Assembly (NCBI GenBank): GCA_028768545.1
Contig: CP054838.1
Coordinates: 1,915,501-1,979,500 of the forward strand
Source of the DNA: Desulfobacter sp.
Lineage (GTDB): Bacteria; Desulfobacterota; Desulfobacteria; Desulfobacterales; Desulfobacteraceae
Length of the DNA: 64,000 nt
Reading direction: 5' to 3'
The position numbers were made by a program, and so were the translations under genes. Numbering within the stretch: the stretch's first letter is position 1; every line of letters begins with the position of its first letter. Positions 5,072 to 51,834 of this stretch are shown piece by piece. The notes under the pieces are model-generated. The model searched no databases. It was given only the letters and a program-made list of their open reading frames with translations, and was not told where the DNA came from.

Positions 5072-5946
5072 ATGAACTACCAAGGAAAAATATACCGGCC
5101 CTGGATCGAGGCCAACAGTCTGCTCATACAGATCACCCTGGGCTGTACCCATAATAAATGTACATTCTGTGACATGTTCAGGGAAAAAAGATTCGGAATC
5201 AGACCGCTTGAAGATATTTTCAAGGATATTGATGAGGCAAGACAGCTTTTTCCTCATGTGGGCGCTATCTTTCTCATTGACGGAAATGTACTGGCCCTAG
5301 AGACCGGATTTCTTTTAAAAGTGATTGAAAAGAGCAGGTCCACTTTTGATGAGTGCTCAAAGATTTCCCTCTACGCAGGGTTCAATGATCTTAGACGCAA
5401 ATCCGTTTCAGAACTTTTTGACCTCAGACAGGCCGGATTGACCATGGCCTATTCCGGGCTGGAATCGGGCCATCCTGAAATCCTTAAACGGGTGAAAAAA
5501 GGGCTGACCCCGGAACAGGCCCTGGCCGGGATGGAACATGCAAAAGCTGCCAAAATTGATGTATTGCTCTCCTTTATCTTCGGGCTGGGGGAAAAGAGCA
5601 TTCCTTTGAGCATATGGTTCAAACCACACGGCTACTCAACCTGATGAAGCCCGAAGAGATTGCCCCCATGGCCCTGGCGGTGCAGTCGGGAACCGAGCTG
5701 GCCAAAGAGATTGAGGCCAAAAAATTCATCCAGGCCACCCCCCTGCAGATTCTTGAAGAGGAAAAATATCTTCTTGAAAACCTTAGGGACTTTACCACCT
5801 TTTACTGGGGGGACCATGGCAACAATATCGTGTCCTCCAAAGGCAGGCTGCCCGAACTTCAGAAGGACTTTCTTGAAAAAATAGACCAGGCCATTGCCAC
5901 CCACCCGGCAACCCAACATAAGGTGCTTAAAACATTTGCATGGTAA
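5072..5946 (+). pseudogene. Radical SAM protein, one-base frameshift
   Basis: The N-terminal part (ITLGCTHNKCTFCDMF) carries the Cys triad of a radical SAM [4Fe-4S] cluster of the type found in YgiQ/HemN-like oxygen-independent enzymes, and GLESGHPEILKRVKKGLTP matches the usual SAM-binding region. The frame ends at 5644, but the family's continuation, EHMVQTTRLLNLMKPEEIAP through to a TAA at 5946, lies in the +1-shifted frame. Adding one G to the G5 run at 5587-5591 would restore GLGGKEHSFEHMVQTTR and a protein of about 291 residues. This is therefore either a homopolymer sequencing error or a real phase-variable or decayed gene. Substrate is unknown. Confidence 0.82.
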
Positions 5947-6036
5947 GTCATGCCGCGGTTGGTGGTTTTGTAAGAGAATATTAAAATCTGCATATCACCC
6001 AAGAACAATAATCGTAAATTAAAAGGATTAAATGAG

Positions 6037-6606
6037 ATGAAACAAAACATCAGCCGGTACCCTGTACCTGAATTTGAAGATCTGCCCGAGGACCTCAAGG
6101 AAATTTTCCTTGCCGTAAAAGAGAAGATGGGATTTATGCCCAATGTCTTGTTTGCCCTGGCCCACCGGCCGGAGGAACTCCGTGCCTTTCTGGCATACAA
6201 CGAGGCCCTGATGAACAGGGAAAGCGGGCTGCCCCCTGCCGACAAGGAAATGATCATCATTGCCCATTCCAATTACAATGGGTGCACCTATTGTGTCCAG
6301 TCCCATGGTGCGGCCCTTCGCCTTGCCATGAAAAATCCCCGGATCGCCGACCAGGTGTCGGTAAATTATCATGAAGCAGATATCACCCCCCGCCAGAAAG
6401 CAAAGATTGATTTTGCAATGAAGATGACAAAGGAGCCCGGAACAATCAATGAAACAGATTTTCAGACCCTTCGGACCCACGGGTTCAGTGACGAAGATAT
6501 CTGGGATATTGCGGGCATCACAGCCTTTTTTAATATGTCCAACCGGATGATGACCTTTGCTGGGGTCCGCCCGGATGACCAATTTTATATGATGGGCCGC
6601 CATTGA
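6037..6606 (+). CDS. AhpD-like carboxymuconolactone decarboxylase-family protein (peroxidase-related)
   Basis: About 189 residues. The segment HSNYNGCTYCVQSHGAAL holds the AhpD-type CxxC with a following His, the redox motif used by alkylhydroperoxidase AhpD relatives; the surrounding helices fit the 'uncharacterised peroxidase-related' subgroup of the CMD family. A start ATG is preceded by AAAAGGA. It lies 90 bp after the radical SAM pseudogene and 74 bp before the DUF169 gene on the same strand, and may share their transcript. In an anaerobe a role in peroxide or disulfide handling is plausible but inferred. Confidence 0.85.
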   Translation: MKQNISRYPVPEFEDLPEDLKEIFLAVKEKMGFMPNVLFALAHRPEELRAFLAYNEALMNRESGLPPADKEMIIIAHSNYNGCTYCVQSHGAALRLAMKNPRIADQVSVNYHEADITPRQKAKIDFAMKMTKEPGTINETDFQTLRTHGFSDEDIWDIAGITAFFNMSNRMMTFAGVRPDDQFYMMGRH

Positions 6607-6680
6607 TCTTTTCATACAAATGCCGGTCCAATCGAGATCATGGGAAAAAAGAATCGTCTTAAATCAGAAAGGAAAACAAA

Positions 6681-7469
6681 ATGACAAACTGGAAAGAACT
6701 TAATAAAGACCTGAACGAACTGCTGCAGCTGGACTCCCGGGGTATCGCCGTAAAGAGACTGGAAAAAAAAGAGGGGCTTGGGAATATCCCGGGGATGGAA
6801 AGGCCTGAATCTGCATTTACCTTTTGCCAGCTGCCCTACCTTGTCAGAAAACAGGGCAAAACCATCGGTATCACACAGGAGGATGCCAAACCCCTGGCAG
6901 ATAAAATGCAGTTAAAATACCGCTGTTTGAGAATCCAGGGCCTGGCCCCGGTCGACCAGGAACAGATAGACAGCGAAGCCAAGGGGTTTGCCGGGTTCTG
7001 GTTCAATGATTATGAAACGGCAAAACAGGCCGTTGGCAGCTATCCTGTACCATCTCCCATTGAAGCCCTGGCCCTGAGTCCCCTGGATGAGGAACGATTT
7101 GAACCGGAATATCTTTTGATTTATGCCAACGGCGGGCAAATGACCCTGCTGATGAACGGACTGCAGTATTATGAATATGAACGGGTGGAATCAAGCTTTT
7201 CAGGAGAAGGGTCCTGTACAGACGCTCTGCCCCGGTGCGTGGCCACCGGCAAGCCCTCCCTTTGCCTGCCCTGCCTGGGGGAAAGAAGTTTTGGCCGGGT
7301 CAATGACGATGAAATGGTGCTGGCCCTGCCTGCCGACCGGCTGGACCGTACGGTCAAAGGGTTGAAAACCATGAAAGAGACCGGCCTTGCCTATCCTGTG
7401 GGCCACCAGGAATCGGGCATGGATGTGACCTCTTTGTTTACCAACTGGTATCCTGTTCAAGATCATTAA
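6681..7469 (+). CDS. DUF169-family protein
   Basis: About 262 residues with the pattern of DUF169 proteins, a family of unknown function common in anaerobic archaea and bacteria: an N-terminal LDSRGIAVKRLEKKEGL, a Cys-containing FCQLPYLVRKQGKTIGI segment, then a central YLLIYANGGQMTLLMNGLQ and a Cys cluster PSLCLPCLGERSFGRV followed by DDEMVLALPADRL. The paired cysteines suggest metal or redox chemistry but no function is established. Shine-Dalgarno AAAGGA precedes the ATG. It ends the plus-strand unit; a strong terminator follows. Confidence 0.8.
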   Translation: MTNWKELNKDLNELLQLDSRGIAVKRLEKKEGLGNIPGMERPESAFTFCQLPYLVRKQGKTIGITQEDAKPLADKMQLKYRCLRIQGLAPVDQEQIDSEAKGFAGFWFNDYETAKQAVGSYPVPSPIEALALSPLDEERFEPEYLLIYANGGQMTLLMNGLQYYEYERVESSFSGEGSCTDALPRCVATGKPSLCLPCLGERSFGRVNDDEMVLALPADRLDRTVKGLKTMKETGLAYPVGHQESGMDVTSLFTNWYPVQDH

Positions 7470-11736: not shown

Positions 11737-13785
11737 CTAGTGAATCAGCCGTTCTAACTTAACGGCCCCGACCTTGAATTCGGGAATTTTGGCCAACGGG
11801 TCAAACGCCTTTGAACTGGTCAGGATATTGGTGGGGTTTTCACCAAAATGAATGGGCAAAAACAGGTTTCCGGGTTTCACATCCCGGGTGATCCTGGCCG
11901 GCACCTCCATCTGCCCCCGCCGTGAGGTCAGCAGCACAAGATCGTTGACTTTAATCTTGAGGTCTTCGGCATTTTTGGGGTGGATTTCCACATACCCGGT
12001 TCTCTGCTCCACGTCCAGATGCTTTGATATCCGTGTCATGGTCCCGGTATGGAAATGGGCAAACATCCGTCCTGTGGTCAGTAAAAAAGGATAGTCTTCA
12101 CAGGCCAGTTCAGCCGGATCCTTATATTCCACAGCATGGAACTTGCCCTTGCCCCTGGCAAATTGCTCCTTGTGAAGATAAGGGGTGCCGGGATGATCCT
12201 CGGCGGGGCAGGGCCATTGCAGACCGTTGATCCCAAGCCGTTCGTAGGTCATTCCCCCATAACTTTTTTCCGTGAGACCGGTCATCTCGTCGAAGATTTC
12301 TTCGGCAGACTCATAGGCCATCTCATATCCCATGGCCGTGGAGAGCCGTGAAAAGATTTCCCAGTCCGGCAGGGCGTTGCCCACAGGTTCAACCGCTTTC
12401 TGGGTGAGCATGCACCGCCGTTCCGTGTTGGTAAAGGTGCCTTGTCGCTCCCCTAAAGCGGCTGAAGAGAGGACCACGTCAGATACCTGGGCGGTTTCCG
12501 AAAGAAAGATATCCTGGGTGACCAGAAAGTCCAGTTTTTTCAAGGCATGGTTGAGGTGGTTCCAGTCCGGGTCACTCAGTTTGGGATTTTCTCCAATCAC
12601 ATACAAGGCCCGTATTTTGCCCGTGTCAATGGCTGATATCATATCGGTGATGGTCATGCCGGGCTTGTCTGAAAGTTCACAATTCCAGGCCTTGGAAAAC
12701 TTTTTATTGGCCTCAGGATCATTCACAGGCTGGTACCCGGTGAACACGTTGGGCAGTCCGCCCATGTCGCAGGCGCCCTGGACATTGTTCTGGCCCCGTA
12801 ACGGATTGACGCCCCCGCCTTTTACCCCTACATTTCCGCAGAGCATGGCAAGGTTGCAGCAGGATTTAACATTGTCCACCCCGGTGGTGTGCTGGGTGAT
12901 ACCCATGGCGTAGAGCAGGGCTGCAGGAGAATTCTGGGCGTAAGTCTCAGCCATTTTGATGATATCTTTTTCCGGCACCTGGGTGATTTTAGAGACCCGG
13001 GCCGGGGTATAGGCTTCAAGGGTGGCGGCCAGGGCCTCAAAATCCTCGCACCGGGTCTGGATATAGTCTTGGTCATGCCAATTGTTTTTGACAATAACAT
13101 GCATCATTCCGTTGAGTAGCGCCACATCAGAGCCCAGGCGGTGGTGGACGGTCAGGTCTGCCAGCCGGGCCAGCTGGATATTTCTGGGGTCGGCCACAAT
13201 GAGCTTGGCCCCGTTTTCCTTTGCCTGGATAATACGGCTGGCAATGAGCGGGTGACAGGCTGTGGTGTTGGAGCCGATCACAAAAATCACCTGGGAATCA
13301 TGTTCAAACTCGGCAATGGAGTTTGTCATGGCTCCGCTTCCAAAAGCAGCGGCAAGACCTGCCACTGTGGAAGAATGTCACAATCGGGCACAATGATCTA
13401 TGTTGTTGGTGCCGATGGCGGCCCGGGTGAATTTCTGGGCCAGATAATTTTCTTCATTGGTGATTTTGGCCGAGACCAGCACCCCGATCGCATCCGGGCC
13501 GTATGTTTCCTTTACCCTGCCAAGGCCTTGTGCTGCGGTGCTGATCGCCTCTTTCCAGGTGGCTTTTTCAAATTTTCCATCCTCTTTGATCAAAGGGGAT
13601 TTTAACCGCATATAGCTGTTGATGTATTCATGCAAACTCCATCCCTTGATGCACAATTTGCCCTGGTTTACGGGATGGGATTTCAAGGGCAGGGTGGATT
13701 CTATTTTTCTGTCAATGACTTCGAACAAGACCCCGCACCCGGTTCCGCAATATGAACAGACTGATGGTACAAATTTACAGTCCAT
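11737..13785 (-). CDS. fdhA: Formate dehydrogenase catalytic subunit, selenocysteine-containing
   Basis: Molybdenum/tungsten-bis-MGD enzyme oxidising formate (or reducing CO2). The N-terminus holds the [4Fe-4S] motif CSYCGTGCGV...KLCIKG. An in-frame TGA (13378-13380, codon 136) falls in NIDHCARL-U-HSSTVAGLAA, exactly the Sec-His active site of FdhF/FdhA (Sec140 in E. coli FdhF), and the same frame continues to 11737, giving about 682 residues. So this is one selenoprotein gene, not two fragments. Later motifs include YAMGITQHTTGVDNVKSC, GGGVNPLRGQNNVQGACDMG and a C-terminal molybdopterin-binding domain. ATG 13785 has GGAG upstream. It is the last gene of the minus-strand operon with hdrA, mvhD and an Fe-S subunit, so formate electrons are probably passed to HdrA via MvhD. 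Redox partner is inferred. Confidence 0.93.
13347..13367 (-). promoter_or_regulatory. SECIS hairpin of fdhA
   Basis: Ten bases after the UGA the mRNA forms an 8-bp stem CAGUGGCA / UGCCGCUG with a GGUCU loop. The E. coli fdhF SECIS has the same apical AGGUCU arrangement recognised by SelB, so this is a textbook bacterial SECIS in place and shape. Confidence 0.88.
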
Positions 13786-13841
13786 GGTTATTCTCCTTGT
13801 ATATAATTGCCTGATCGACAATTTATGTGTTCAACCATTGA

Positions 13842-14669
13842 TTAGGCATCCAATGGTTTGAGCTGGGCTTCAATCTTATCCCCGATGATGCTGAAAGGGG
13901 AGTTATCCAAACCGCTTCCCGGCTGGAAGTCAAAAATGTCAGATACAATTTCATTGGCCTCCCGGTAGAGAAGCCGCAAGGGGATATGGGCGGGGCAGGC
14001 ATCCTCACACAATCCGCAGTCAATACACCGGCCGGCCATATGGGTGGCACGGACCAGATGGAAAATGGGGACTTCAGGAGGAAGCCTCCCCGGTTCGATC
14101 AGCCCTTCATGCTCAAGGCTGCACTCTTTGCAAAAACATACCGGACAGATATTTCTGCACCCGTAACATTTGATGCATTTATTAAATTCATACATCCATC
14201 TTGAAAACCGGTCCTTGTTTCCCATGGTGTCCAAAATACTCTCTGGTGAGGCGTTATAATCAATTCCATGTTCTTGTTTATATTCACCCGTGGTTTTAGG
14301 CGCAAGGTAGGAACAGTCGCCATGGGCTTTGAAAGGGGAGGGACAGCAGTTCACCCCGATGGTTTCAACTTTTTTTGGGTCCAGCTGATTCCAGGTATAC
14401 AATACGTTCAATGTCCTCTGGTTGCAGTCCCTGGCAATCAGCCCGATCTTAAGATCCGAATCTTTTTTGGCCAGATGAATGGCCACCTTTTCAAGGGGGT
14501 ATCGGTTCCGGCTGACACACAATCCTTCAAGTTCGTCCAGATTGTCCCGGGTATATCCATGGGGGATTTTATGGCCGCAAAGTTCCCTGTATCCCAGGAA
14601 AATATCCACCCGTTCCTGGACAAGCCATTGCCGGGCCTCCTGAATGATTTTTAATTTGGCAGTATCCAT
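13842..14669 (-). CDS. Iron-sulfur electron-transfer subunit of the Hdr/formate dehydrogenase operon
   Basis: 275 residues. The N-terminal two thirds resemble the FdhB/FrhB-like subunits of formate dehydrogenases and F420-type hydrogenases in style (GYRELCGHKIPHGYT, IGLIARDCNQRTLNVLY, IGVNCCPSP). The C-terminal third has two [4Fe-4S] motifs: CIKCYGCRNICPVCFC and CIDCGLCEDACPAHIP. No transmembrane segment is seen, so it is cytosolic. It lies one base downstream of mvhD and 56 bp upstream of fdhA, so it probably wires FdhA to MvhD/HdrA. The exact family name is not certain. Confidence 0.75.
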   Translation of the reverse strand: MDTAKLKIIQEARQWLVQERVDIFLGYRELCGHKIPHGYTRDNLDELEGLCVSRNRYPLEKVAIHLAKKDSDLKIGLIARDCNQRTLNVLYTWNQLDPKKVETIGVNCCPSPFKAHGDCSYLAPKTTGEYKQEHGIDYNASPESILDTMGNKDRFSRWMYEFNKCIKCYGCRNICPVCFCKECSLEHEGLIEPGRLPPEVPIFHLVRATHMAGRCIDCGLCEDACPAHIPLRLLYREANEIVSDIFDFQPGSGLDNSPFSIIGDKIEAQLKPLDA

Positions 14670-14670
14670 T

Positions 14671-15102
14671 TTATCTCACTTCCTGGGCCATTGCCCTTAA
14701 AGGGTTGGGACCCATCTCTCTGATTTTTTCGGTGAACCGGGTCACCACCTCAACATATTTTTGGGCCTCGGCTGATGAGATCCATTCAAGGTGGAGACGT
14801 CCTTCAAGTCCCATGAACTTGAGCAGTTCCTGGACAAAGGCCATGCGTTTAATGGTCATATGATTACCTGACAGGTAATGGCAGTCGCCGATATGTCAGC
14901 CGCCGACCAGGACACCGTCCGCATTGCTCTGCAGCGCCCTCAGAATATGGTGGGGGGATACGGATGCGGAGCACATCACCCTTACCGGCATGATATTGGC
15001 CGGGTATTGGAGGCGTGAGACCCCGGCCAGGTCGGCCGCGCCATAGGCACACCAATTACACATAAAGGCGATGATTTTGGGTTCAAATATGTCTGCTTTC
15101 AC
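14671..15102 (-). CDS. mvhD: MvhD-like electron-transfer subunit, selenocysteine-containing
   Basis: 143 residues after recoding. The first 68 (MCNWCAYGAADLAG, ANIMPVRVMCSAS, GVLVGG) and the part after the stop (HIGDCHYLSGN, KRMAFVQELLKFMGLEGRL) are the two halves of the small [2Fe-2S] MvhD/FlpD family. They are joined in frame by TGA at 14896-14898, at the place where homologues read GVLVGGCHIGDCHY; the methanogen VhuD orthologue is a known selenoprotein with Sec here. MvhD passes electrons from a hydrogenase or formate dehydrogenase to HdrA. It lies 18 bp downstream of hdrA and one base upstream of the Fe-S subunit gene. Confidence 0.9.
14863..14879 (-). promoter_or_regulatory. Candidate SECIS hairpin of mvhD
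   Basis: Sixteen bases after the UGA the mRNA contains the perfect palindrome AUUACCUG-U-CAGGUAAU, which can fold into a stem of six to eight pairs. Its position fits a bacterial SECIS, but the loop is less canonical than those of fdhA and hdrA because the GGU falls on the 3' side of the stem. Confidence 0.6.
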
Positions 15103-15120
15103 TGGATAACTCCTTATATT

Positions 15121-18100
15121 TTAAGCGCTTAATGCGCTTTTAATCTGCACATAGAGCTGTTCATTGTTAAACCCTTCCAGGGTCAGGGCTTCGGAGGGAC
15201 ATGCGGCCGCACAGGCCCCGCATCCCTTGCACAACGCATTGTTGATCTCGACAATGGATTGGTCCTTGTCCATTGTGATGGCCCCGTAGGGACAGACCTT
15301 GATGCAGCCCTGGCAGCCCGAACAGAGCTGGGGGTTGACCCTGGATACGATTCCGCCCACAAAGATGGTATCCCGTGCCAGGGTGGTCACGGCTCTTGAG
15401 GCTGCGGCCTTGGCCTGGGCAATGCTCTCGTCCATGGGCTTGGGATAGTGGGCCATGCCGCAGAGAAAGAGCCCGTCCGTGGCAAAATCAACGGGCCGCA
15501 GTTTTTGGTGGGCCTCTAAAAGCCAGCCGTCAGCGTCGCAGGTGACTTTGAATGCCTGGGCCAGTTCCTGGTTCTCATGGGCCTCAATTCTTGAGGCCAG
15601 GCAGAGCAGATCCGCGTCAATACTGAGCCTGCGGTCCAGGACATGGTCGGTGAATTCAACGGTAACGCATTGGTCGCCTGACTCAACAACAGGTTTATGA
15701 TCGGGCTCGTACTGGAAAAACAAGATGCCCATATCCCTGGCCTGTTTGTAGATCATTTCCCGTTTGCCGTATGTCCTGATATCCCTGTACAGGATGATGA
15801 CATTGGCATCGGGGTTTTTTTCTTTCACCTGGATGGCCGAATGGATGGAATGGGTGCAGCAGACCTTGGAGCAATAGGGATGGTTTTCATCCCTGGACCC
15901 CACGCATTGGATAAACACCACATTGTCCGCCCGGTCAATCCGCGGGTCTTTGTTTTTGAGCAGCCCGTCAAAATCCAGGTGGGTAAACACCCTTTCATCT
16001 TTTCCGTAGAGGTACTCCTCAGGCTTGGATTCCCTGGCACCGGTGGCCAGAACCGCCACCCCGTGCGAAATGAGATGGTCTTTTTCATCCGTGGATACAC
16101 AGGTGTTGAAATTGCCCACAAATCCCTGGACCTCCTTGATTTGAGCTCCCAAAAAAACCGTGATCAGGTCTGAGGCATCTATCTGCTGGATCAATTCTTT
16201 GACATGGCCGGCAATATTTTCATTCATATAGGTGGTAAAAAGCTGCCTTGTATTGCCGCCCAGGTATTGGTCCCTTTCCACCAAAGAGACGGCAAATCCC
16301 TGGTTGGCCAGGGACAGGGCGCTGGTCATCCCGGCCACCCCGCCGCCCACGACCAGGGCAGACCTTGTCACGGGCAGCTGGGTTTCAAACAGAGGAGACA
16401 AAAGAAGGCTTTTTGCCGCTGCCATGCGGACCAGGTCCATGGCCTTTTGGGTGGCCTTTTCAGGGGTCTTGGAATGAACCCAGGAGTCCTGGTTCCGGAT
16501 ATTGGCCATCTCAAGAAGATATCTGTTCAGGCCGGCGTTGATCAAGGTTTCCTGGAACAGGCCTTCATGGGTTTTAGGCGAACAGGCTGCCACAACCACC
16601 CGGTTGAGCCCCTGGTCTTGAATCACCTCGGCCATTTTGTCCTGGGTATCCTGGGAGCAGGTAAACAGGTTCTCTTCGGCATAGGTCACCCCGGGAAGCG
16701 TTCGGGTATACTCAACCACGGCGGGTACATCAACCACCCCGCCGATATTGGTGCCGCAATTGCATACAAACACCCCTATTTTTGGAAATTCGCCTCCAAG
16801 GTCTCTTTCCTTGGGAATGGTTATGGCCCGGGTCAGGGTATGTCTTGCCTGGGAGATCTTTTCCCCTGCTGCTGCCGCGGCAGAGCTGGCCTCCATCACG
16901 GACTGGGGAATATCCTTGGGACCGGTGAGCACACCGCAGGCAAAAATTCCCGGAACCGAGGTGGACACGGGATGAAAGTTGTCCGTCTGGATGAAATTAT
17001 GGGCATCCAGTTCAACACCCATGGTGGCGGCAAGGGCTGCAGAGGCCGCGCTGATCTGAAGACCTGTGGACAGGACAACCATATCAAAGCGTTCATCTTT
17101 CATGATCCCTGATCCATTGGCATACCGTAATCGTATGCCGTTTTTGTCCTTTTGGGGTTCCACTGAGTGGACCCTGGACCGGATAAAGCGGACCCCGCCT
17201 TTTTTTGCATTTTCCACATACCGGTCAAAATCCTTGCCCTGGGTTCTCATGTCCATGTAGAAGATGGCCCGGTCCAGGGGCGCAGCGCTGTGCTCTCCTG
17301 CCATGACCGCTTGTTTTACCGCGTACATGCAGCATACGGATGAGCAATACCCGTTTGAACATCTGTTTTCATCCCTGGACCCCACGCATTGGAGCCAGGC
17401 GATTTTTTTGGGGTGGGTCTTATGCTTTTTGTCCGAGGGCAGGCAGAGGTGACCGCCGGTGGGGCCTGTGGCTGACAGCACTCGTTCAAATCCCATGGAG
17501 GTTACAATATCCGGATGCTGGGAATAGCTTAAGTAGTCCAGAGAAGAGGGATCAAAGGAATCAAATCCCGTGGACAGGATAATGGACCCCACATGGATGG
17601 ACAATTCTTTTTGGGTGTCCTGATAATTGATGGCCCCGGACGGGCAGATTTTTTCACACAGCCCGCATTTGTTTTTATTCAAAAACAGGCATTGGGTATC
17701 GTCAATGGCGTATTTGAGGGGCACTGCCTGGGAATAGGGCACATAGATGGCCTTTCTTTTGCCCAGGCCCTCATTATACTCGTCATCCACTCGTTTGGGG
17801 CATTTTTCAGCACAGAGTCCGCAGGCAATACATTTGTCCGGATCCACATACCGCGGGTGCTGGGTGACTGCAACTTTAAAATTTCCCTGTGACCCTGAAA
17901 CCCGGGTGATTTGAGCAAGGGTCAAAAGTTCAATATTGACATGCCGGCCGACCTCGACCAGTTTGGGGGAAATAATTCACATGGCACAGTCATTGGTGGG
18001 AAAAGTCTTGTCCAGCTGGGCCATTTTTCCGCCAATGGCCGAAGATCGTTCGACCAGGTAAACGTAAAATCCTGAATTGGCCAGGTCCAATGCGGCCTGC

Positions 18101-18189
18101 ATGCCGGAAATACCGCCTCCGACAACCATGGCCGATCCCTGAAGGCCTTCCGGCCTGATATCCTGTAGAGTTTCCATTTGAGTATTCAT
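15121..18189 (-). CDS. hdrA: HdrA-type flavoprotein, tandem-fused and selenocysteine-containing
   Basis: About 1022 residues in one recoded frame. The first HdrA unit has the FAD motif GGGISG (residues 24-29), then [16 protein letters not shown] with TGA at 17977-17979 as codon 71; HdrA homologues have Cys there and methanogen HdrA is a known selenoprotein. It continues with [12 protein letters not shown] (about 120-131), CGLCEKICP (about 175-183), a [10 protein letters not shown]...YCSSVCC region, and [15 protein letters not shown] second unit starts with GGGVAG (about 615-620), again has [17 protein letters not shown], and the C-terminus has two [4Fe-4S] motifs, [12 protein letters not shown] and [12 protein letters not shown]. 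HdrA is the flavin-bifurcating hub. It is preceded four bases upstream by a receiver gene and followed by mvhD and fdhA. No hdrB or hdrC lies nearby, so the low-potential and disulfide partners are unknown. Confidence 0.9.
17944..17961 (-). promoter_or_regulatory. Candidate SECIS hairpin of hdrA
   Basis: Fifteen bases after the UGA the mRNA forms the 7-bp stem CUGGUCG / CGGCCGG closing an AGGU loop. The loop carries the GGU element typical of SelB-recognised bacterial SECIS hairpins. Confidence 0.78.
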
Positions 18190-18193
18190 ATCT

Positions 18194-18577
18194 TTAATTT
18201 GTTTGGGTATCTGATTCCTTGAAAGCGTTTCGAACCGCAATGATAATGTCGTCGTCATTAAAGGGTTTTGAAATATAATCGTTGGCCCCAAGCTTCATGG
18301 CTTTGACTGCATTTTTAACGGTTGAGTATCCGGTGATCACAACAACATATAATTGGGGCTTGGCTTTTTTGACCTTTTCTAAGATCTCCATCCCGTCTAT
18401 GTCTTTGAGTTTCATGTCAAGCAAAAGTACATCATAGGGCAGTTCCATAACCGTTTTAAGGCCGTTAACACCCGACAGGGAATGGTCACATGCATATCCC
18501 ATTTCATCCAAAATCATCTTACAGCCTTTACAGATGACGTTTTCATCATCTATGATCAATACTCTTTTTCGGTTCAT
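18194..18577 (-). CDS. Single-domain response regulator (receiver only)
   Basis: 127 residues consisting of one CheY-like receiver: acidic pocket IIDDE, phospho-acceptor Asp54 ([12 protein letters not shown]), Thr in VVITGYST and Lys in ISKPFND. No output domain. It abuts the histidine kinase gene upstream (stop of that gene is adjacent to this start) and ends 4 bp before hdrA, so it is translationally linked to the Hdr/Fdh operon. It may relay phosphate to another regulator, such as the NtrC-type protein at 20838. Confidence 0.92.
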
Positions 18578-19825
18578 TCATCTGCCTTTCGTAATATGTT
18601 CACCCTGTTCATTTAAAATGGGAAGTTTTATGGTGATCAAGGTACCGCCGGCCTGCTGGCTCATGATCTCAATATTTCCCTGGTGATTTTTGATAATACC
18701 GTAGCTCACGGCCAGTCCAAGCCCCGTTCCTTCGGCCTTGGTGGTATAAAAAGGTTCAAATATTTTTTTAAGTTTATCCTGGGGAATCCCGTATCCGTTA
18801 TCCTGGATCTTGATGATGGCCATATGGTTTTCCACGTCCATTCCGGACCGGATGCTGATGATCCCTTTTTCGTCCAAGGCCTGGACAGCATTGAGCAGCA
18901 GGTTGATGACCACCTGTTCGATCTGGTTGTCGTCCAGTTGAAAGTTGATAAGGTTGGGATCCAGACGCTTTTTGATCTGGATTCGCTTGATTAAAAATTC
19001 GTTGTCCATGAGGGCTAAAGACCGTTCGATCACGGTATTGATATTGGCATCCACTTTTTCAGGCTTTTTTTCCCGTGAAAAATCAAGGAGCCCCTGGATG
19101 GTTGTTTTACACCTCTGGGTCTCGCTCATAATGATTTCCAGCCCCTCTTTAAAGGGGCCGCCTTCATCGGCTTTTTTATAGAGGTTGGAGCTGTAGAGCA
19201 GGATCCCGGTCAGGGGATTGTTGATTTCATGGGCGATCCCGGCAGCCATTCTTCCTAGAGAGGAAAGCCTGTCAATCTTGGTGGCCAGTCGATTATACTT
19301 GAGGGTATGAAATTTGATCCGGTCATTATGCTGGATGGCGCATGCCAGCTGTTCGGTCACAGCCTCGATGAAATCCAGTTCTTCCGGGGAAAACTCTTTT
19401 TGTTCGCCAAAATAGCCCCGGATACACCCGAACAGGACATTATCAAAAACCAAAGGCACATCCACCATCATCTGGATGCCTTCGTCCCAGGCTTTTTGGG
19501 GATATTTAATCCGGGGGGCATTCATGATATCCGTGATAATATGGATATTGGCTTCTCCCTCGGGCCAGGGCATAAAATCTTTGCCCGACATGGGTTCGAG
19601 TTCCAGGTATTTTTCATCAATGCCATAGGAGGCCTGGATTTTAAAAATATTGGTTTTCTTATCCAGGATACACAAGACCATCCCTTTGGCATTGAGTCCC
19701 CGGGTGGTGCTCGACACAATGAGTTTGAGTACCTCTTTCATGTCGGTTCCGCTCTTTGAATGGACCAGCTTGCTCACTTCTCTGAAAGCACGATAAAATG
19801 TTTTAAATTGTGGTAAGTCAGTCAT
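18578..19825 (-). CDS. Cytosolic GAF-domain sensor histidine kinase
   Basis: 415 residues without signal peptide or membrane segment. Residues about 20-175 form a GAF-like sensor (MVLCILDKKTNIFKIQASYG, MVDVPLVFDNVLFGCIRGYF), then a HisKA domain with the phospho-His in GIAHEINNPLTG, and an HATPase_c domain with N box (NLLLNAVQAL), G1 (DNGYGIP), F box (FEPFYTTK) and G2 (GTGLGLAVSYGI). A soluble kinase in an operon with formate/heterodisulfide-type electron-transfer genes probably reads an internal redox or metabolite signal. It lies between two receiver genes. Confidence 0.92.
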   Translation of the reverse strand: MTDLPQFKTFYRAFREVSKLVHSKSGTDMKEVLKLIVSSTTRGLNAKGMVLCILDKKTNIFKIQASYGIDEKYLELEPMSGKDFMPWPEGEANIHIITDIMNAPRIKYPQKAWDEGIQMMVDVPLVFDNVLFGCIRGYFGEQKEFSPEELDFIEAVTEQLACAIQHNDRIKFHTLKYNRLATKIDRLSSLGRMAAGIAHEINNPLTGILLYSSNLYKKADEGGPFKEGLEIIMSETQRCKTTIQGLLDFSREKKPEKVDANINTVIERSLALMDNEFLIKRIQIKKRLDPNLINFQLDDNQIEQVVINLLLNAVQALDEKGIISIRSGMDVENHMAIIKIQDNGYGIPQDKLKKIFEPFYTTKAEGTGLGLAVSYGIIKNHQGNIEIMSQQAGGTLITIKLPILNEQGEHITKGR

Positions 19826-19888
19826 AGTTATCTCTTTGCGTTTAAGAGTTTCAGTCGGATATTTTAGGGTTTCAGCCAGAAAAAAAGG

Positions 19889-20563
19889 TTACCAGGCTTC
19901 CCTTTCCAGGCGTTTGTAAACAAACATCAATTGTTTCTGGGTCAGCTCCCCGATGTTTTCATTGATCCATTTTAAGTCACCTGAGGCAATGGCGGATTTT
20001 GCAGGGGAAGAGAGGGCATATTCCGACAGGGCTGCGCTACCCTGTTCCATGAGAGAAAGCCAGAACCCGGGGTCTTCGCTGGTCCTGTTCAGCACCTTTA
20101 AGACTTCGCGTTTCTGGATGGACGGATCCTGCGCCATGCCCATGGATGAATCAATTTCCTTCATCCTGTGTTCGGCCAGAGCCTTTCTGATGGAATCCTT
20201 GATCTGTTCTTCGGTAAAGGGTTTGGCTATGAAATCATGGGCGCCCAGCTTCATGGCATCAACGGCCAGGGCACTTGTGGCATACCCGGTCATCACGATT
20301 ACCTGGGTCTCGGGCCGGGTTTCCTTGATCCGCTTTACCACCTGCATGCCATCAATATCGGGCAGCCTCAGATCGGCCATGAGAAGGTCGTAATCATACT
20401 GGCCCATGGCGGCCATCGCCCCCCGGCCTGTTCCCTCAAGATCAACCTGATACCCTTGTTCACCCAGTATCATTTTTAATCCCTTGGCCACATTCAGGTC
20501 GTCTTCCATCACCAAAATATGGGATTCATCTGTGTTTTTGTTTTTTTCCTTTACGGCAGTCAT
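19889..20563 (-). CDS. Response regulator with uncharacterised C-terminal domain
   Basis: 224 residues. Residues 15-130 are a receiver with acidic MEDD, phospho-acceptor Asp64 (LLMADLRLPDIDG), VIVMTGYAT and IAKPFTEE. The last 80 residues (KVLNRTSEDPGFWLSLMEQG, LKWINENIGELTQKQLMFVY) are helical and match no output domain I know; there is no obvious DNA-binding helix-turn-helix. First gene of the operon, with AGGAAAGG before the ATG, 32 bp downstream of a predicted sigma-54 transcription start. Confidence 0.85.
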   Translation of the reverse strand: MTAVKEKNKNTDESHILVMEDDLNVAKGLKMILGEQGYQVDLEGTGRGAMAAMGQYDYDLLMADLRLPDIDGMQVVKRIKETRPETQVIVMTGYATSALAVDAMKLGAHDFIAKPFTEEQIKDSIRKALAEHRMKEIDSSMGMAQDPSIQKREVLKVLNRTSEDPGFWLSLMEQGSAALSEYALSSPAKSAIASGDLKWINENIGELTQKQLMFVYKRLEREAW

Positions 20564-20605
20564 ATCTGCATCCTTTCCTTAGGGTTTGGGTTACAAATCC
20601 TAAGT

Positions 20606-20621
20606 TGCATTTGCCGTGCCG
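20606..20621 (-). promoter_or_regulatory. Candidate sigma-54 promoter of the two-component/hdr/fdh operon
   Basis: Minus-strand sequence CGGCACG-GCAA-ATGCA matches the sigma-54 consensus TGGCACR-N4-TTGCW except at two positions, with the invariant GG and GC exactly 12 bases apart. Predicted transcription start about 20595, 32 bp before the first gene. A sigma-54 activator is encoded immediately upstream. Confidence 0.6.
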
Positions 20622-20837
20622 GAATGAGCCAATGAATTTTAAAGTTTTATTTTAGTGTTATTTCAATAAGTTACGCTTTTGGGCGATTGAGAATTACGAC
20701 CCTGTAGTTTGAAAATTTTAAATTTCGTATAAAAAAATATATGGGAAATGAAAAAAATCAATGGGTTGGGGAGGAAATGCCCAAAAACAGGGGGGTATAA
20801 AAAAAAATACGATATATATAAAAATATATGGTTTTAA

Positions 20838-22235
20838 CTATTTTGAATATTTGATCTGGTATTTTTTCATGAGGGTTGAAAAATTTGACCGCTGCATGCC
20901 TACATTTTTAGCGGCCCGGGAGATATTCCCGTCGGCATTTGAAAGGGCCTGTTTTAAAAAAGAGACTTCGATTTTTCCAAAATGGTTTTCCAGAAAAGAT
21001 TTTTTAGCGGCCTTGAGCTCATTTAGGTTTTTGGGTGTTGACAGGTCCGTGAAATCGGTTTGTCTTTTTATTTCCAGGTGTTCGTACAAAAATTTTTGGT
21101 TTAACTGGGGCCCGTCAGACATTATCACAAGCCGTTCCACCACATTTTTCAATTGCCTGACATTTCCGGGCCAGTTGAAATTGACAAGGATTTCCAATGC
21201 CTGGTCTGAAAATCCCTTGATTTGTTTTCCTGTTTTTCGGCAGAACCGTTTTAAAAAATAATAGGCCAGCCTTGGAATATCATCTTTTCTCTCCCTCAGG
21301 GGCGGAATCAAAACAGGAAAGACATTCAACCGGTAAAACAGGTCCTGGCGGAATTTTTTTTTGCCCACCATTTTTTTAAGATCCACATTTGTTGCGGCAA
21401 TGATCCGGGCATTGGTCTTTTTCATCTGGCTGGATCCCACAGCTTTAAACTCTCCTGTTTCCAGCACCCGGAGCAGTTTACCCTGAATATCCATGTCCAG
21501 ATTGGAGACCTCGTCCAGAAACAGGGTGCCAGGAGAGGCAATTTCGAAAATCCCGGGGCTGGTTTTGTCTGCCCCGGTATAGGCCCCTTTGACATGGCCG
21601 AACAACTCATTTTCCAGCAGGGAGGCGGAAAAGGTGTTGCAGTCCACTGCCAGAAACCGTTCACTGGCCCGTTTGCTCCGGGCGTGGATGGCGTTGGCAA
21701 ACAACTCCTTGCCCGTGCCGCTCTCTCCGTCCAAAAGCACTGTGGCTTCCATGGGGGCCACCCGTTCTATCTTATGAAAAACATCGACAATCTTTTGGTT
21801 TTCTCCGATGATATTATCAAAACTGAATTTATCGTAGAGCTGTTTTTTCAAAGAAAGGTTTTCCTGCACCAGCCGCCTGCTTTCACAGGCCTTGTCAATG
21901 GCCTTTAAAATTTCTTTGTCGTCAAAGGGCTTGGTAATATAATCAAAGGCCCCGTTTTTCATGGCATCCACGGCATTCTCCACCGTTCCGTGACCGGTCA
22001 TGATGATCACATAGGTCCCTGATTTCTCTTTGTTGATTTTTTTTAGGATATCAATGCCGCAGATGTCCGGAAGCCTGATGTCCAAAAGGATAATATCAAA
22101 GCAATTGTTCGATATTTTTTCCAGAGCGTCCAGGCCGGATAATGATATGTCAGCCTCATACCCTTCTTCTGAAAGAACCAGCTGGCACCCGTTGCAAATA
22201 TTGGGTTCATCATCAACAACTAAAATTTTTTCCAT
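20838..22235 (-). CDS. NtrC-family sigma-54-dependent response regulator
   Basis: About 465 residues from ATG 22235; an in-frame TTG ten codons earlier is less likely. Receiver domain with Asp52 (IILLDIRLPDICG) and TKPFDD, AAA+ domain with Walker A GESGTGKELF and the sigma-54 contact loop GAYTGA (Phe replaced by Tyr, a tolerated variant), and a Fis-like HTH (NISRAAKNVGMQRSNFS) at the C-terminus. It is separated by 270 bp of AT-rich DNA from the operon that carries a sigma-54-type promoter, so it is the prime candidate activator of the GAF-kinase/hdrA/mvhD/fdhA genes. The 270-bp gap holds no gene. Confidence 0.93.
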   Translation of the reverse strand: MEKILVVDDEPNICNGCQLVLSEEGYEADISLSGLDALEKISNNCFDIILLDIRLPDICGIDILKKINKEKSGTYVIIMTGHGTVENAVDAMKNGAFDYITKPFDDKEILKAIDKACESRRLVQENLSLKKQLYDKFSFDNIIGENQKIVDVFHKIERVAPMEATVLLDGESGTGKELFANAIHARSKRASERFLAVDCNTFSASLLENELFGHVKGAYTGADKTSPGIFEIASPGTLFLDEVSNLDMDIQGKLLRVLETGEFKAVGSSQMKKTNARIIAATNVDLKKMVGKKKFRQDLFYRLNVFPVLIPPLRERKDDIPRLAYYFLKRFCRKTGKQIKGFSDQALEILVNFNWPGNVRQLKNVVERLVIMSDGPQLNQKFLYEHLEIKRQTDFTDLSTPKNLNELKAAKKSFLENHFGKIEVSFLKQALSNADGNISRAAKNVGMQRSNFSTLMKKYQIKYSK

Positions 22236-22491
22236 ATTATTCAGGCTTTCAGAGGTGACATCCAAAATTATTGACCCCTGTCAATGTTTTTGTATCCTTG
22301 ACCCGTTCCCACCAGATGATCATGCCCTAATCCGGGAGGGGGCGATAGTGTTTATGGCTTTTTTTCAACAGTATAAACCAGGGCAGACAGATCTTCAATA
22401 TCTGATTGACAGCAGCCTGACCCTTTTTGCAGGTCTTCTCTGCCCTGGTCTGCTCGCCCGTACATCCCATTGAGATTGGGCGAGGTGAACA

Positions 22492-25381: not shown

Positions 25382-26832
25382 GGGAATGTTCAGAATTCTG
25401 TGTCACGGTTTCGGTTCCCGGATCTGCCTCAGCGCCAGCGGAAGTAAAAGTCAGGTCCGAGAATGGGCCTTCAATCAGCCACGTCGGAGGAGTTGACTTT
25501 TGCTGGAGTGGAGTTCCTGGAACCATCTTTTCCATCTGTAAATAAATCCCTATCAAATTCCCAGCTCTTTATCCAGCCGGCCTTCAAAGAAAATTGCCAA
25601 CTGGGAAATTGTCAGTGACCAATTTTGAATCGGCATTGTCCATTTTTTACTGGCGTTCTGGATCCCCATGTAAAGCAGCTTTAACAGGCTGTCCTGGTTC
25701 GGGAATGATCCCTTTGTTTTGGTCAGTTTTCGAAACTGTCGATGCACAGCCTCAATGGTATTTGTGGTGTATATTATCCGTCGAATCTCTTCTGGATATT
25801 TAAAGAAATGACTGAGGCGTTCCCAGTTGTTCCGCCAGGATTTTATCACAATCGGGTATTTGTCATTCCATTTATTTTCCAAGATATCCAGTTCTTCTTC
25901 GGCCAGATCCTTATTGACCGCTTTATAAACACGTTTTAGATCTGCCATAAATTCCTTTTTATTTTTGGAACCAACGTATTTCAATGAATTTCGGATCTGG
26001 TGGACTACGCAGAGTTGAACTTCTGTGTCCGGGAATATGGTCTCAATGGCCTCGGGAAAACCTTTTAGACCATCAACACAGGCAATCAGGATATCTTTTA
26101 CCCCTCGGTTTGAAAGGTCTGTTAACACCTGCAGCCAGAAGTTCGCACCCTCATTCTCGGATATGTACAGCCCAAGAACCTCTTTACGGCCCTCGATATT
26201 CACCCCAAGAATTGTGTAAACGGCTTTGCTGCCGACCTTTCCGTTTTCTCGTACTTTATAATGTATGGCATCAAGCCATACGATTGGGTACACATTTTCC
26301 AACGGCCTGGCCTGCCATTCTTTGACGGTATGGATGATTTTATCGGTAATGGTGCTCAGAGTGGCATTTGAAATCTCAAGTCCATAGATTTCCTGTAAAT
26401 GGGAAGCCATATCATTATAACTCATGCCCAGGCCGTAAAGGGCTATTATCTTTCTTTCAATTTCATCGCTGAGCGTTGTCTGATGTTTTTTGACGATCTG
26501 TGGAGAGAAGGTTCCGGCCCTGTCACGCGGGGTTTCCAGCTCAAATTTACCATCCAGGGATTTAATGGTCTTTTTGCTTTTTCCATTACGGCGGTTGGCA
26601 GAAACTTCCTGCCCGAGATGGGACTCCAACTCTCCTTCAAGATCAGCTTCAGCAAGATTTTTGATTAATGATGTAAGGACGCCGCCCTTACCTGTGAAGG
26701 GTTTACCTTCCTGGATGCCTTTAAGGGCTTTTTGAAAATCAAATTCGGTGTTTTCTTCGGTCATGTCAGTTCTCCTTATTTAGCTGAGTATATCAGCTTT
26801 CATTCAACTGACACAGAATTTTGAACGCCCTT
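25382..26832 (-). mobile_element. IS256-family insertion sequence, copy A (1451 bp)
   Basis: Complete element with ends GGGAATGTTCAGAATTC and, complemented, AAGGGCGTTCAAAATTC followed by the common CTGTGTCA. An 8-bp target duplication GGTCTGGA flanks it (25374-25381 and 26833-26840). The outermost base pair at the transposase-proximal end differs from the other copies (AAGGGCG instead of GAGGGCG). It landed between the esterase gene and the porin pseudogene. Confidence 0.95.
25553..26764 (-). CDS. IS256-family (Mutator-type) transposase, copy A
   Basis: 403 residues. Catalytic DDE region: PIVWLDAIHYKVRENGKV (first Asp), LIACVDGLKGFPEAI (second Asp), and YTTNTIEAVHRQFRK (Glu), as in Mutator-type transposases. 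AAGGAG lies eight bases before the ATG. It differs from copies C and D by a few residues (for example EADLEGEL instead of EAALEGEL). Confidence 0.95.
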   Translation of the reverse strand: MTEENTEFDFQKALKGIQEGKPFTGKGGVLTSLIKNLAEADLEGELESHLGQEVSANRRNGKSKKTIKSLDGKFELETPRDRAGTFSPQIVKKHQTTLSDEIERKIIALYGLGMSYNDMASHLQEIYGLEISNATLSTITDKIIHTVKEWQARPLENVYPIVWLDAIHYKVRENGKVGSKAVYTILGVNIEGRKEVLGLYISENEGANFWLQVLTDLSNRGVKDILIACVDGLKGFPEAIETIFPDTEVQLCVVHQIRNSLKYVGSKNKKEFMADLKRVYKAVNKDLAEEELDILENKWNDKYPIVIKSWRNNWERLSHFFKYPEEIRRIIYTTNTIEAVHRQFRKLTKTKGSFPNQDSLLKLLYMGIQNASKKWTMPIQNWSLTISQLAIFFEGRLDKELGI

Positions 26833-35609: not shown

Positions 35610-36139
35610 CCCGGTATCATCCTCCCCTCAGCAGTGGCCGAAAATAACCTTTAACAGCAAAATCAATGTTGTGGTTTAAAAATTTAAACTTAAAGCGTTT
35701 AGGGGCTGTTTTTAAAGAGGGCGTTCAAAATTCTGTGTCAGTTGAATGAAAGCTGATATACTCAGCTAAATAAGGAGAACTGACATGACCGAAGAAAACA
35801 CCGAATTTGATTTTCAAAAAGCCCTTAAAGGCATCCAGGAAGGTAAACCCTTCACAGGTAAGGGCGGCGTCCTTACATCATTAATCAAAAATCTTGCTGA
35901 AGCTGCTCTTGAAGGAGAGTTGGAGTCCCATCTCGGGCAGGAAGTTTCTGCCAACCGCCGTAATGGAAAAAGCAAAAAGACCATTAAATCCCTGGATGGT
36001 AAATTTGAGCTAAAAACCCCGCGTGACAGGGCCGGAACCTTCTCTCCACAGACCGTCAAAAAACATCAGACAACGCTCAGCGATGAAATTGAAAGAAAGA
36101 TAATAGCCCTTTACGGCCTGGGCATGAGTTATAATGATA

Positions 36140-37590
36140 GGGAATGTTCAGAATTCTGTGTCACGGTTTCGGTTCCCGGATCTGTCTCGGCGCCAGCGGA
36201 AGTAAAAGCCAGGTCCGAGAATGGGCCTTCAATCTGCCACGTCGGAGGAGTTGGCTTTTGCTGGAGCGGAGTTCCTGGAACCATCTTTTCCATCTGTAAA
36301 TAAATCCCTATCAAATTCCCAGCTCTTTATCCAGCCGGCCTTCAAAGAAAATTGCCAACTGGGAAATTGTCAGTGACCAGTTTTGAACCGGCATTGTCCA
36401 TTTCTTACTGGCGTTCTGGATCCCCATGTAAAGCAGCTTTAACAGGCTGTCCTGGTTAGGAAACGATCCCTTTGTTTTGGTCAGTTTTCGAAACTGTCGA
36501 TGCACAGCCTCAATGGTATTTGTGGTGTATATTATCCGTCGGATCTCTTCTGGATATTTAAAGAAATGACTGAGGCGCTCCCAGTTGTTCCGCCAGGATT
36601 TTATCACAATCGGGTATTTGTCATTCCATTTATTTTCCAAGATATCCAGTTCTTCTTCGGCCAGATCCTTATTGACCGCTTTATAAACACGTTTTAGATC
36701 TGCCATAAATTCCTTTTTATTTTTGGAACCAACGTATTTCAATGAATTTCGGATCTGGTGGACTACGCAGAGTTGAACTTCTGTGTCCGGGAATATGGTC
36801 TCAATGGCCTCGGGAAAACCTTTTAGACCATCAACACAGGCAATCAGGATATCTTTTACCCCTCGGTTTGAAAGGTCTGTTAACACCTGCAGCCAGAAGT
36901 TCGCACCCTCATTCTCGGATATGTACAGCCCAAGAACCTCTTTGCGGCCCTCGATATTCACCCCAAGAATTGTGTAAACGGCTTTGCTGCCGACCTTTCC
37001 GTTTTCTCGTACTTTATAATGTATGGCATCAAGCCATACGATTGGGTACACATTTTCCAACGGCCTGGCCTGCCATTCTTTAACGGTATGAATAATTTTA
37101 TCGGTAATAGCGCTAAGGGTGGCATTTGAAATCTCAAGTCCATAGATTTCCTGTAAATGGGCAGCCATGTCATTATAGCTCATGCCCAGGCCGTAAAGGG
37201 CTATTATCTTTCTTTCAATTTCATCGCTGAGCGTTGTTTGGTGTTTTTTGACGATTTGTGGAGAGAAGGTTCCGTTCCGATCACGCGGGGTTTTTAGCTC
37301 AAATTTACCATCCAGGGACTTAATGGTCTTTCTGCTTTTTCCATTACGGCGGTTGGCAGAAATTTCCTGTCCGAGATGGGACTCCAACTCTCCTTCAAGA
37401 GCAGCTTCCGCAAGATTTTTGATTAATGATGTAAGGACGCCGCCCTTACCTGTGAAGGGTTTACCTTCCTGAATACCTTTAAGAGCTTTTTGAAAATCAA
37501 ATTCGGTGTTGTCTTCGGTCATGTCAGTTCTCCTTATTTAGCTGAGTATATCAGCTTTGATTCAACTGACACAGAATTTTGAACGCCCTC
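36140..37590 (-). mobile_element. IS256-family insertion sequence, copy C, nested in copy B (1451 bp)
   Basis: Complete element in opposite orientation to its host copy B, inserted in the transposase gene between the codons for MSYND and MASHL. An 8-bp target duplication TAATGATA flanks it (36132-36139 and 37591-37598). Confidence 0.95.
36311..37522 (-). CDS. IS256-family transposase, copy C
   Basis: 403 residues, intact, DDE motifs as in copy A. Small differences (MTEDNTEF, EISANRRNGKSRK, RDRNGTFSP, HLQEIYGLEISNATLSAI) make it the most diverged of the four copies. AAGGAG lies eight bases before the ATG. Confidence 0.95.
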   Translation of the reverse strand: MTEDNTEFDFQKALKGIQEGKPFTGKGGVLTSLIKNLAEAALEGELESHLGQEISANRRNGKSRKTIKSLDGKFELKTPRDRNGTFSPQIVKKHQTTLSDEIERKIIALYGLGMSYNDMAAHLQEIYGLEISNATLSAITDKIIHTVKEWQARPLENVYPIVWLDAIHYKVRENGKVGSKAVYTILGVNIEGRKEVLGLYISENEGANFWLQVLTDLSNRGVKDILIACVDGLKGFPEAIETIFPDTEVQLCVVHQIRNSLKYVGSKNKKEFMADLKRVYKAVNKDLAEEELDILENKWNDKYPIVIKSWRNNWERLSHFFKYPEEIRRIIYTTNTIEAVHRQFRKLTKTKGSFPNQDSLLKLLYMGIQNASKKWTMPVQNWSLTISQLAIFFEGRLDKELGI

Positions 37591-50479: not shown

Positions 50480-51834
50480 GGGGCAATTCAATTTTGGTTG
50501 TGGATGATGATGGGGCTCATGCCCGGATGCTTGCGACCCTGATCCAGGACTGGGGATACAAGATTCATCTGGCCAATGACGGTGATGTGGGCCTGGACAT
50601 GGTTAAAAAACAATCCTTTCACCTGGTGCTCATGGATATGAAAATGGTGAATATGTCAGGCATGGAGGCCCTGGAGCAGATTCATGCCTTTAATCCTTCC
50701 TTGCCCGTGATCATCATGACCGCCTTTTCTTCCGTGGACACGGCTGTAAAGGCATTGAAAATCGGGGCCTATGATTATCTGACAAAACCTTTGGATTTTG
50801 ACAAGCTCAAGCTGACCATTGAACGGGTGTTTGAACGCCAGGACCTGAAATCCGAAAACAAGGTGTTAAAAGACCGGCTGGAAAAAAAAGGGTTTCAACA
50901 CAGAATCCTGGGAAAAAGCCCTGCCATGACGGCTCTTTTGGACACCATCCACATGGTGGCACCCACAGACGCCAATGTGCTTGTGACCGGGGCCTCCGGC
51001 ACGGGAAAAGAGTTGGTTTCCTCGGCCATCCATTACAACAGTCCGCGGAAAAATGCTCCCTATATCCGGATCAATTGCGCAGCCATAACCCAGACTCTGC
51101 TCGAGTCTGAACTCTTCGGCCATGAGCGGGGGGCCTTTACAGGGGCGGACAAGAAACGTAAAGGCAAGTTTCTTCTGGCAGACAAGGGCAGCATCCTTTT
51201 GGACGAGATCGGGGAAATGAGCCTTGCCATGCAGGCCAAACTGCTCCGGGTGATCCAGGAAAAAGAGATCACCCCTGTGGGATCGGACAAGACCATTGGG
51301 GTGGATGTCCGGGTCATTGCCGCCACCAACCGGGATCTTAAGTCCATGGCCGCCAAAAAAGAGTTCAGGGAAGATCTTTACTATCGGTTGAATGTGGTCT
51401 GCATAGATATTGTGCCCCTTTGCCGCAGGCCGGAAGATATTCCTGAACTGGCCCTTCATTTTCTGGCGTTGTTCGCCCAAAAAAACAAGCGGGACATCAA
51501 AGGGTTTACCCCCAATGCCATGGATACCCTGATCCGGTATCACTGGCCGGGCAATGTCAGGGAATTGATGAATGCCGTGGAGCGGGGAGTGGTCATGGCC
51601 AGAACCGATTATTTGAGAAAAAACGATCTTTTTTTTATTTCAGAACAGGCAGTCCAGGATCCGGTACCGGATAGAGGCCTTGAGAATCTCAGCCTGTCAA
51701 AGGTCGAGGAAAAAGCGATTTTGTCCACCCTGGCGGCGGCAGAGGGAAATAAAAGTGAAACCGCAAGACGGTTGGGCATTACCCGGAAAACATTGCTCAA
51801 TAAATTAAAACAATACCAAAAGGACGATCAATGA
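50476..51834 (+). CDS. zraR: ZraR-like sigma-54-dependent response regulator
   Basis: 452 residues. Receiver with acidic VDDDGAH and phospho-acceptor Asp in HLVLMDMKMVNMSG, AAA+ domain with GASGTGKELV and the intact ERGAFTGADKKRKG loop, and a Fis-type HTH (NKSETARRLGITRKTLLNKL). Activates sigma-54 promoters, here most likely zraP. Overlaps zraS by 4 bp. Confidence 0.92.
   Translation: MRGNSILVVDDDGAHARMLATLIQDWGYKIHLANDGDVGLDMVKKQSFHLVLMDMKMVNMSGMEALEQIHAFNPSLPVIIMTAFSSVDTAVKALKIGAYDYLTKPLDFDKLKLTIERVFERQDLKSENKVLKDRLEKKGFQHRILGKSPAMTALLDTIHMVAPTDANVLVTGASGTGKELVSSAIHYNSPRKNAPYIRINCAAITQTLLESELFGHERGAFTGADKKRKGKFLLADKGSILLDEIGEMSLAMQAKLLRVIQEKEITPVGSDKTIGVDVRVIAATNRDLKSMAAKKEFREDLYYRLNVVCIDIVPLCRRPEDIPELALHFLALFAQKNKRDIKGFTPNAMDTLIRYHWPGNVRELMNAVERGVVMARTDYLRKNDLFFISEQAVQDPVPDRGLENLSLSKVEEKAILSTLAAAEGNKSETARRLGITRKTLLNKLKQYQKDDQ

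Follow-up and report, generated by a model that had tools for sequence, protein, structure and literature searches.

In sulfate reducers, formate is believed to be coupled to low-potential carriers by Hdr-Mvh-Fdh complexes, and in the open literature we met no regulator with a functional assignment to these complexes. The closest described loci are those of Desulfobacterium autotrophicum HRM2, in which hdrA or hdrL is accompanied by mvhD, fdhB and fdhA, and in which Hdr, MvhD and FdhA contain selenocysteine (PMC2702500). According to the legend of Figure 4 in that paper, the genes drawn at the hdr loci include a response regulator, a histidine kinase and a CheY-like regulator, so the regulator neighbourhood was probably already seen in 2009; no promoter, palindromes or regulatory role were found in the available part of the account. 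Here we consider the same kind of hdr-mvhD-fdhBA selenoprotein locus in Desulfobacter sp., located in a stretch of 64,000 nucleotides (the window; contig CP054838.1, positions 1,915,501 to 1,979,500) of a genome that consists of a single contig of 4.96 Mb. The locus is best explained as encoding a dedicated, sigma-54-dependent and self-amplifying two-component switch for its hdr-fdh operon, a reading based on sequence comparison to which we give a probability of roughly 0.8.

The regulators of this locus resemble several described systems. FhlA, a sigma-54 activator of the GAF type, binds formate and controls formate hydrogenlyase in E. coli. It has in common with our locus the GAF input, the sigma-54 promoter and a formate dehydrogenase as the target, but it is a one-component activator, and its palindrome consists of TGT and ACA with a spacer of 10-12 bp (PMC6615313, available part). 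As to AtoSC, ZraSR and NtrBC, the kinase core best matches the AtoS and ZraS models and the activator the AtoC and NtrC models; the NCBIfam equivalog cut-offs are not reached (AtoC 415 of 714 bits, ntrC 382 of 559, AtoS 232 of 646, ZraS 187 of 479). Unlike in these systems, the input domain is GAF, and the target operon itself encodes the kinase along with two receivers that lack DNA-binding domains. An adjacent activator and a conserved sigma-54 promoter, and for DVU2275 an AT-rich palindrome, were likewise described in the Desulfovibrio vulgaris sigma-54 regulome (PMC4641369), in whose main text the terms hdr, heterodisulfide and formate dehydrogenase do not occur. A pan-bacterial survey reports sigma-54 promoters before COG3383 formate dehydrogenases and finds activators to be most numerous in Desulfobacteria (PMC12316311); in the available part, the formate dehydrogenase enrichment concerns proteobacterial classes and Bacilli, and heterodisulfide is not mentioned. 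We recognised no description of the present regulator or promoter logic in the open literature, which does not by itself show that none is in print.

The genes lie on the minus strand in the order NtrC-type activator, 274-bp gap, response regulator 1 (RR1), GAF histidine kinase, response regulator 2 (RR2), hdrA, mvhD, an fdhB-like gene and fdhA. The original prediction, made from the letters of the window alone, described a receiver, a GAF kinase, a receiver and hdrA separated by 63, 0 and 4 bp, and these distances are exact (20563-19889, 19825-18578, 18577-18194, then 18189). The activator that it placed beyond the promoter (20838-22265, with an alternative start at ATG 22235) indeed has receiver, sigma-54 AAA and Fis-type helix-turn-helix domains by Pfam, with GAYTGA at residue 227. 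RR1 (19889-20563), the first gene past the promoter, combines a receiver (Asp64) with a tail of about 85 residues; in the kinase (18578-19825; 415 residues, His199) the Pfam domains GAF, HisKA and HATPase occupy the full length; RR2 (18194-18577) is a stand-alone Pfam receiver (Asp54). No DNA-binding domain was found by Pfam in either RR1 or RR2. Features of an NtrC-type two-component system that are found together here are the activator domains with the GAYTGA loop, a nearby HisKA-HATPase kinase, a -24/-12 promoter and rpoN, the last with one match in the window genome; sigma-54 AAA-domain matches number 49 in the same genome.

The gap between the NtrC and RR1 genes contains, besides the sigma-54 site, paired AT-rich palindromes. 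The -24/-12 element, CGGCACGGCAAATGCA (20621-20606, minus strand), has the GG-N10-GC spacing, is conserved in place and would give a transcript start at about 20595. It is the CGGCACG-N4-ATGCA that the original prediction singled out; the site stands, but as a lone motif it is within chance, since 35 sites of the window score at least 17 out of 19.9 on the same loose, hand-set scale, and we rejected it as evidence by itself. With 18.9 it is the second best in the window. The top-scoring sigma-54-like site, TGGCACACCCCTTGCT (48478-48463, minus strand), lies about 2 kb from the frame of a receiver-type sigma-54 activator (50461-51831, plus strand). The distal palindrome, GTATTTTTTTTTATAC (20810-20795, minus strand), is a candidate upstream activator site; the proximal one, ATATATTTTTTTATAC (20742-20727, minus strand), is found 68 bp from it, and the two are conserved as a pair. 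At a spacing of 68 and with up to three mismatches, the pair occurs once in the 4.96-Mb genome, at this locus, and 0 times in the reversed control; single exact palindromes occur at two further places. No sigma-70-like match was found on the minus strand of the gap.

The gene set recurs in relatives. The kinase search gave 11 of 78 genomes at family level (E 1e-60) and, at E 1e-80, 24 of 242 at order and 14 of 297 at phylum level, the window genome being included in each. We compared 49 loci, i.e. the window and the surroundings of 48 other matches (10 family, 23 order, 15 phylum); a lone extra kinase of genome G035, inside L018, was left out of the locus count. The order from NtrC through RR1, kinase, RR2, hdrA, mvhD and fdhB to fdhA is identical in all 10 family relatives found, so the arrangement suggested from the window alone is a conserved one. 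Overall, 19 of the 49 loci, several of which are truncated at contig ends, have the window order of NtrC followed by RR1-kinase-RR2-hdrA; in another 14, kinase-NtrC is followed by RR1-hdrA, with RR2 absent or elsewhere; and in nine, L089 among them, RR1 stands ahead of genes of the nuoE and nuoF types and of an fdhA whose front part resembles NuoG, the RR1 operon being divergent from kinase-NtrC in six of these nine. NtrC orthologues, with 53-73% identity, are present in most loci. The targets are hdrA-mvhD-fdhBA or nuoEF-fdhA, and therefore formate dehydrogenase is the element that they usually share. Among the remaining arrangements, L132 has nuoE and no RR1, L134 has RR1 without enzyme genes, and L097 has receivers with nuoE, nuoF and an HdrA-type cluster; RR1 was not seen in L095, L096, L127 and L136, three of which are at or near contig ends. 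Genome G015, scored as kinase-negative, has RR2 before hdrA at a contig edge. Moreover, distances over 30 loci and the window give correlations of 0.86 for kinase-NtrC, 0.84 for NtrC-RR1 and 0.83 for kinase-RR1, and lower ones of 0.48-0.69 for the pairs with HdrA, so the regulators track one another more closely than they track HdrA. Two loci carry additional copies: L018 has a second GAF kinase (5487-6725, plus strand; 58% identical), convergent with fdhA of the same operon, and L122 has tandem hdr-mvhD-fdhB-fdhA operons with NtrC, RR1 and kinase between them, ahead of the second.

The promoter composite recurs with the genes in many sulfate reducers and related bacteria. Both palindromes and the GG-N10-GC element are visible when the window gap is aligned with those of the 10 family loci (12 rows, one locus contributing two), and the pair GTATA-N6-TATAC was seen again in 17 order-level gaps, with at most two mismatches per site and centres 68-71 bp apart. 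We then defined a joint rule (sigma-54 score of at least 17; palindromes with no more than three mismatches together, spaced by 66-72 and located 95-140 bp before the GG), which is satisfied upstream of 39 of the 45 RR1 genes, by none of 4500 dinucleotide shuffles and by none of 45 reverse strands. Among the regions fetched once the motif had been noticed, 12 of 14 satisfy it. The RR1 genes failing the rule are L083:10784, a copy after fdhA, L084:5007, a second RR1 where the composite precedes the first, one of the two in L022, and those of L086, L123 and L134. A scan of the 49 whole loci, with wider distance limits than in the RR1-upstream test, found the composite in 41 loci (44 rows) with palindrome centres 67-71 bp apart. 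It precedes an RR1 gene in all positive loci except L132, where it faces the nuoE gene; in L022 it lies between the two RR1 genes, and L099 gives an extra reverse-strand row from the same sites. Five paralogous hdrA-mvhD-hdrA-mvhD-fdhB-fdhA operons, fetched from 24 lower-identity fdhB matches, have no close kinase, NtrC, RR1 or palindrome pair in the 7-10 kb covered upstream; distant kinases and receivers (26-32% identity) occur near two of them. One such operon, TGA-bearing and without these regulators, is in the window genome itself (L145; G000:C1:2113000-2129000). For the sequences scanned, the comparison establishes a common gene set, a putative promoter with paired palindromes, and the restriction of both to these operons.

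Several points weigh against this interpretation. Eight of the 49 loci lack the composite (L086, L095, L096, L118, L123, L127, L134 and L136); four of these, L096, L118, L127 and L136, end at or near contig ends, and L095 has no RR1, but L086, L123 and L134 have a sigma-54 site and no palindrome pair. The neighbouring operon has no close fdhA in L095, L097, L132 and L134. The motif came from the family that is included in the count, the loci are related so that the counts are not independent, and both the weights of the score and the limits on spacing were chosen manually. Finally, the kinase was found at E 1e-60 in none of the 18 other genomes of the genus. A close fdhB-like protein is likewise present in none of these 18, three of which have homologues of 40-44%, so the cassette seems to be gained or lost as a unit.

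The enzyme genes themselves are of the selenoprotein type. The hdrA gene (15121-18189, minus strand) has an in-frame TGA at 17979-17977 (codon 71, Sec71), and the single frame of 1022 residues, with 938.6 bits for the HdrA2 model (under the cut-off of 1100), needs read-through. The mvhD gene (14671-15102, minus strand; Pfam FlpD, 170 bits), which sits between hdrA and the fdh genes, has a TGA at 14898-14896 (Sec69). The fdhB-like 4Fe-4S protein (13842-14669, minus strand) is named from its position and from PMC2702500. The fdhA gene, encoding the formate dehydrogenase alpha subunit (11737-13821, minus strand), has a TGA at 13380-13378 (Sec148) and, with this codon translated as an amino acid, scores 818 bits for TIGR01591 (cut-off 666). 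Together with a tRNA-Sec in the genome (75.4 bits, gathering threshold 47), the three codons fit a selenoprotein operon with predicted selenocysteine incorporation. The TGA codons in hdrA and mvhD, the place of mvhD before the fdh genes and the paired palindromes were absent from the original prediction. Putative selenocysteines in the kinases of G023 and G008 were rejected, as the TGA is at the C-terminal alignment end, i.e. a normal stop that was read past; the stop TGA of the window kinase abuts the start of RR2.

Across the phylum sample, the sigma-54 site and the paired palindromes keep recurring with the linked genes, which strongly supports the predicted control of the hdr-fdh genes, already proposed for the window, by the kinase and the NtrC protein through one promoter before RR1. 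A cytosolic signal would act on the GAF kinase, which would autophosphorylate at His199 and pass the phosphate to Asp62 of the NtrC protein. The latter would bind the palindromes at 20810-20795 and 20742-20727 and, through its GAYTGA loop, open sigma-54 RNA polymerase at 20621-20606. Judging from the gene spacing, a single transcript from about 20595 may then cover RR1, kinase, RR2, hdrA, mvhD, the fdhB-like gene and fdhA, and the kinase and the extra receivers would rise together with the enzyme; since the promoter precedes the genes of the kinase and of both response regulators, its activation would increase the sensor's own level. The two response regulators may compete for the same phosphate or report it, as feedback or as control at the enzyme level. 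The receivers of NtrC, RR1 and RR2 are 41-48% identical to each other (RR2 and the NtrC receiver 48%) and 28-33% identical to another receiver of the window, as expected if one kinase serves all three. It is quite improbable, on the other hand, that the regulators and enzyme genes are mere neighbours and that hdrA has its own promoter: a sigma-70-like match (9/12) is indeed found within RR2 at 18459-18431, but matches of this kind number 19 against a mean of 13.1 (standard deviation 3.7), which is close to chance, the gap to hdrA is 4 bp, and linkage and promoter are conserved. The recurring promoter with its defined palindrome pair offers a direct handle on the regulation of the operon, and it suggests what one of the numerous sigma-54 activators in these bacteria may control.

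The signal of this switch would most likely be formate or the redox state of carriers used by the enzyme. We tentatively favour formate or a one-carbon metabolite bound by the GAF domain, at somewhat less than even odds, because it fits the shared target: the same regulators are found on two electron-acceptor modules, hdrA-mvhD-fdhBA and nuoEF-fdhA, that have formate dehydrogenase in common, and the system would then be a split counterpart of FhlA. The four loci without a close fdhA argue against it, and L097, which ties the system to nuoE, nuoF and an HdrA-type cluster, speaks for a cytosolic carrier or thiol whose redox state would be the signal, a proposal that we hold as tentatively. The target enzymes transfer electrons between formate and carriers of low potential, and the redox proposal is kept open because 29 of 32 aligned kinases have a cysteine at the position of Cys162, where the GAF part ends; however, the other GAF-part cysteines of the window kinase vary (Cys52 in 12 of 32, Cys134 in 1 of 32), and none of the Pfam domains of the kinase is of the Fe-S, haem or flavin type. 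The structure model of the kinase (mean predicted local distance difference test, pLDDT, of 35) is too poor for inspection of the pocket. Selenium supply is a highly improbable signal. The hdr-type operons do have TGA at the respective codons (HdrA 31/31, FdhA 22/22, MvhD 24/25; the count leaves out the Cys rows of L097 and one FdhA row of L132 with 24% identity), but the nuo-type operons of the same regulators have Cys in 9 of 9 FdhA, and TGA is also present in the paralogous operons that lack these regulators.

The proposed switch is of a known kind, its location and arrangement are new, and RR1 is its one unexplained part. The RR1 tail, a domain that travels with formate dehydrogenase, is well conserved, is found once in the window genome and ends with RLERE-A/V-W in 24 of 35 aligned rows. 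It has no Pfam family in the window, and relatives give sub-threshold matches only (LigA, E 0.11). A model of RR1 from three sequences (mean pLDDT 54; tail blocks 61-80 across residues 151-224) suggests, with low to moderate confidence, that the tail forms five helices; the Foldseek matches listed for RR1 are receivers or receiver-containing proteins. In one genome a receiver is fused in one frame to a NuoE-type 2Fe-2S subunit (L089:5263-6225, minus strand), and in another single genome two receivers are fused to an HdrA front part (L097:4844-6580, minus strand). These fusions, which may be real or assembly effects, point, without establishing it, to a possible action of RR1 on the enzyme. Receiver-NuoE fusions were found in none of 395 phylum genomes and receiver-HdrA gave no full-length match in the phylum search, results that show little, with only 3-5 candidates per genome scored. 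We consider it unlikely, though conceivable, that RR1 serves the formate dehydrogenase complex as a regulatory subunit under the control of phosphorylation, with the tail docking on HdrA or NuoE. The kinase would then govern not just the amount of the enzyme, through NtrC, but also its operation; if true, an electron-transfer enzyme of the Hdr type would be under direct two-component control.

Elsewhere in the window, two frames at 25553-26764 (minus strand) and 35785-36303 (plus strand), which we take to be transposase-like, are nearly identical over their first 110 or so residues, the second one being truncated.

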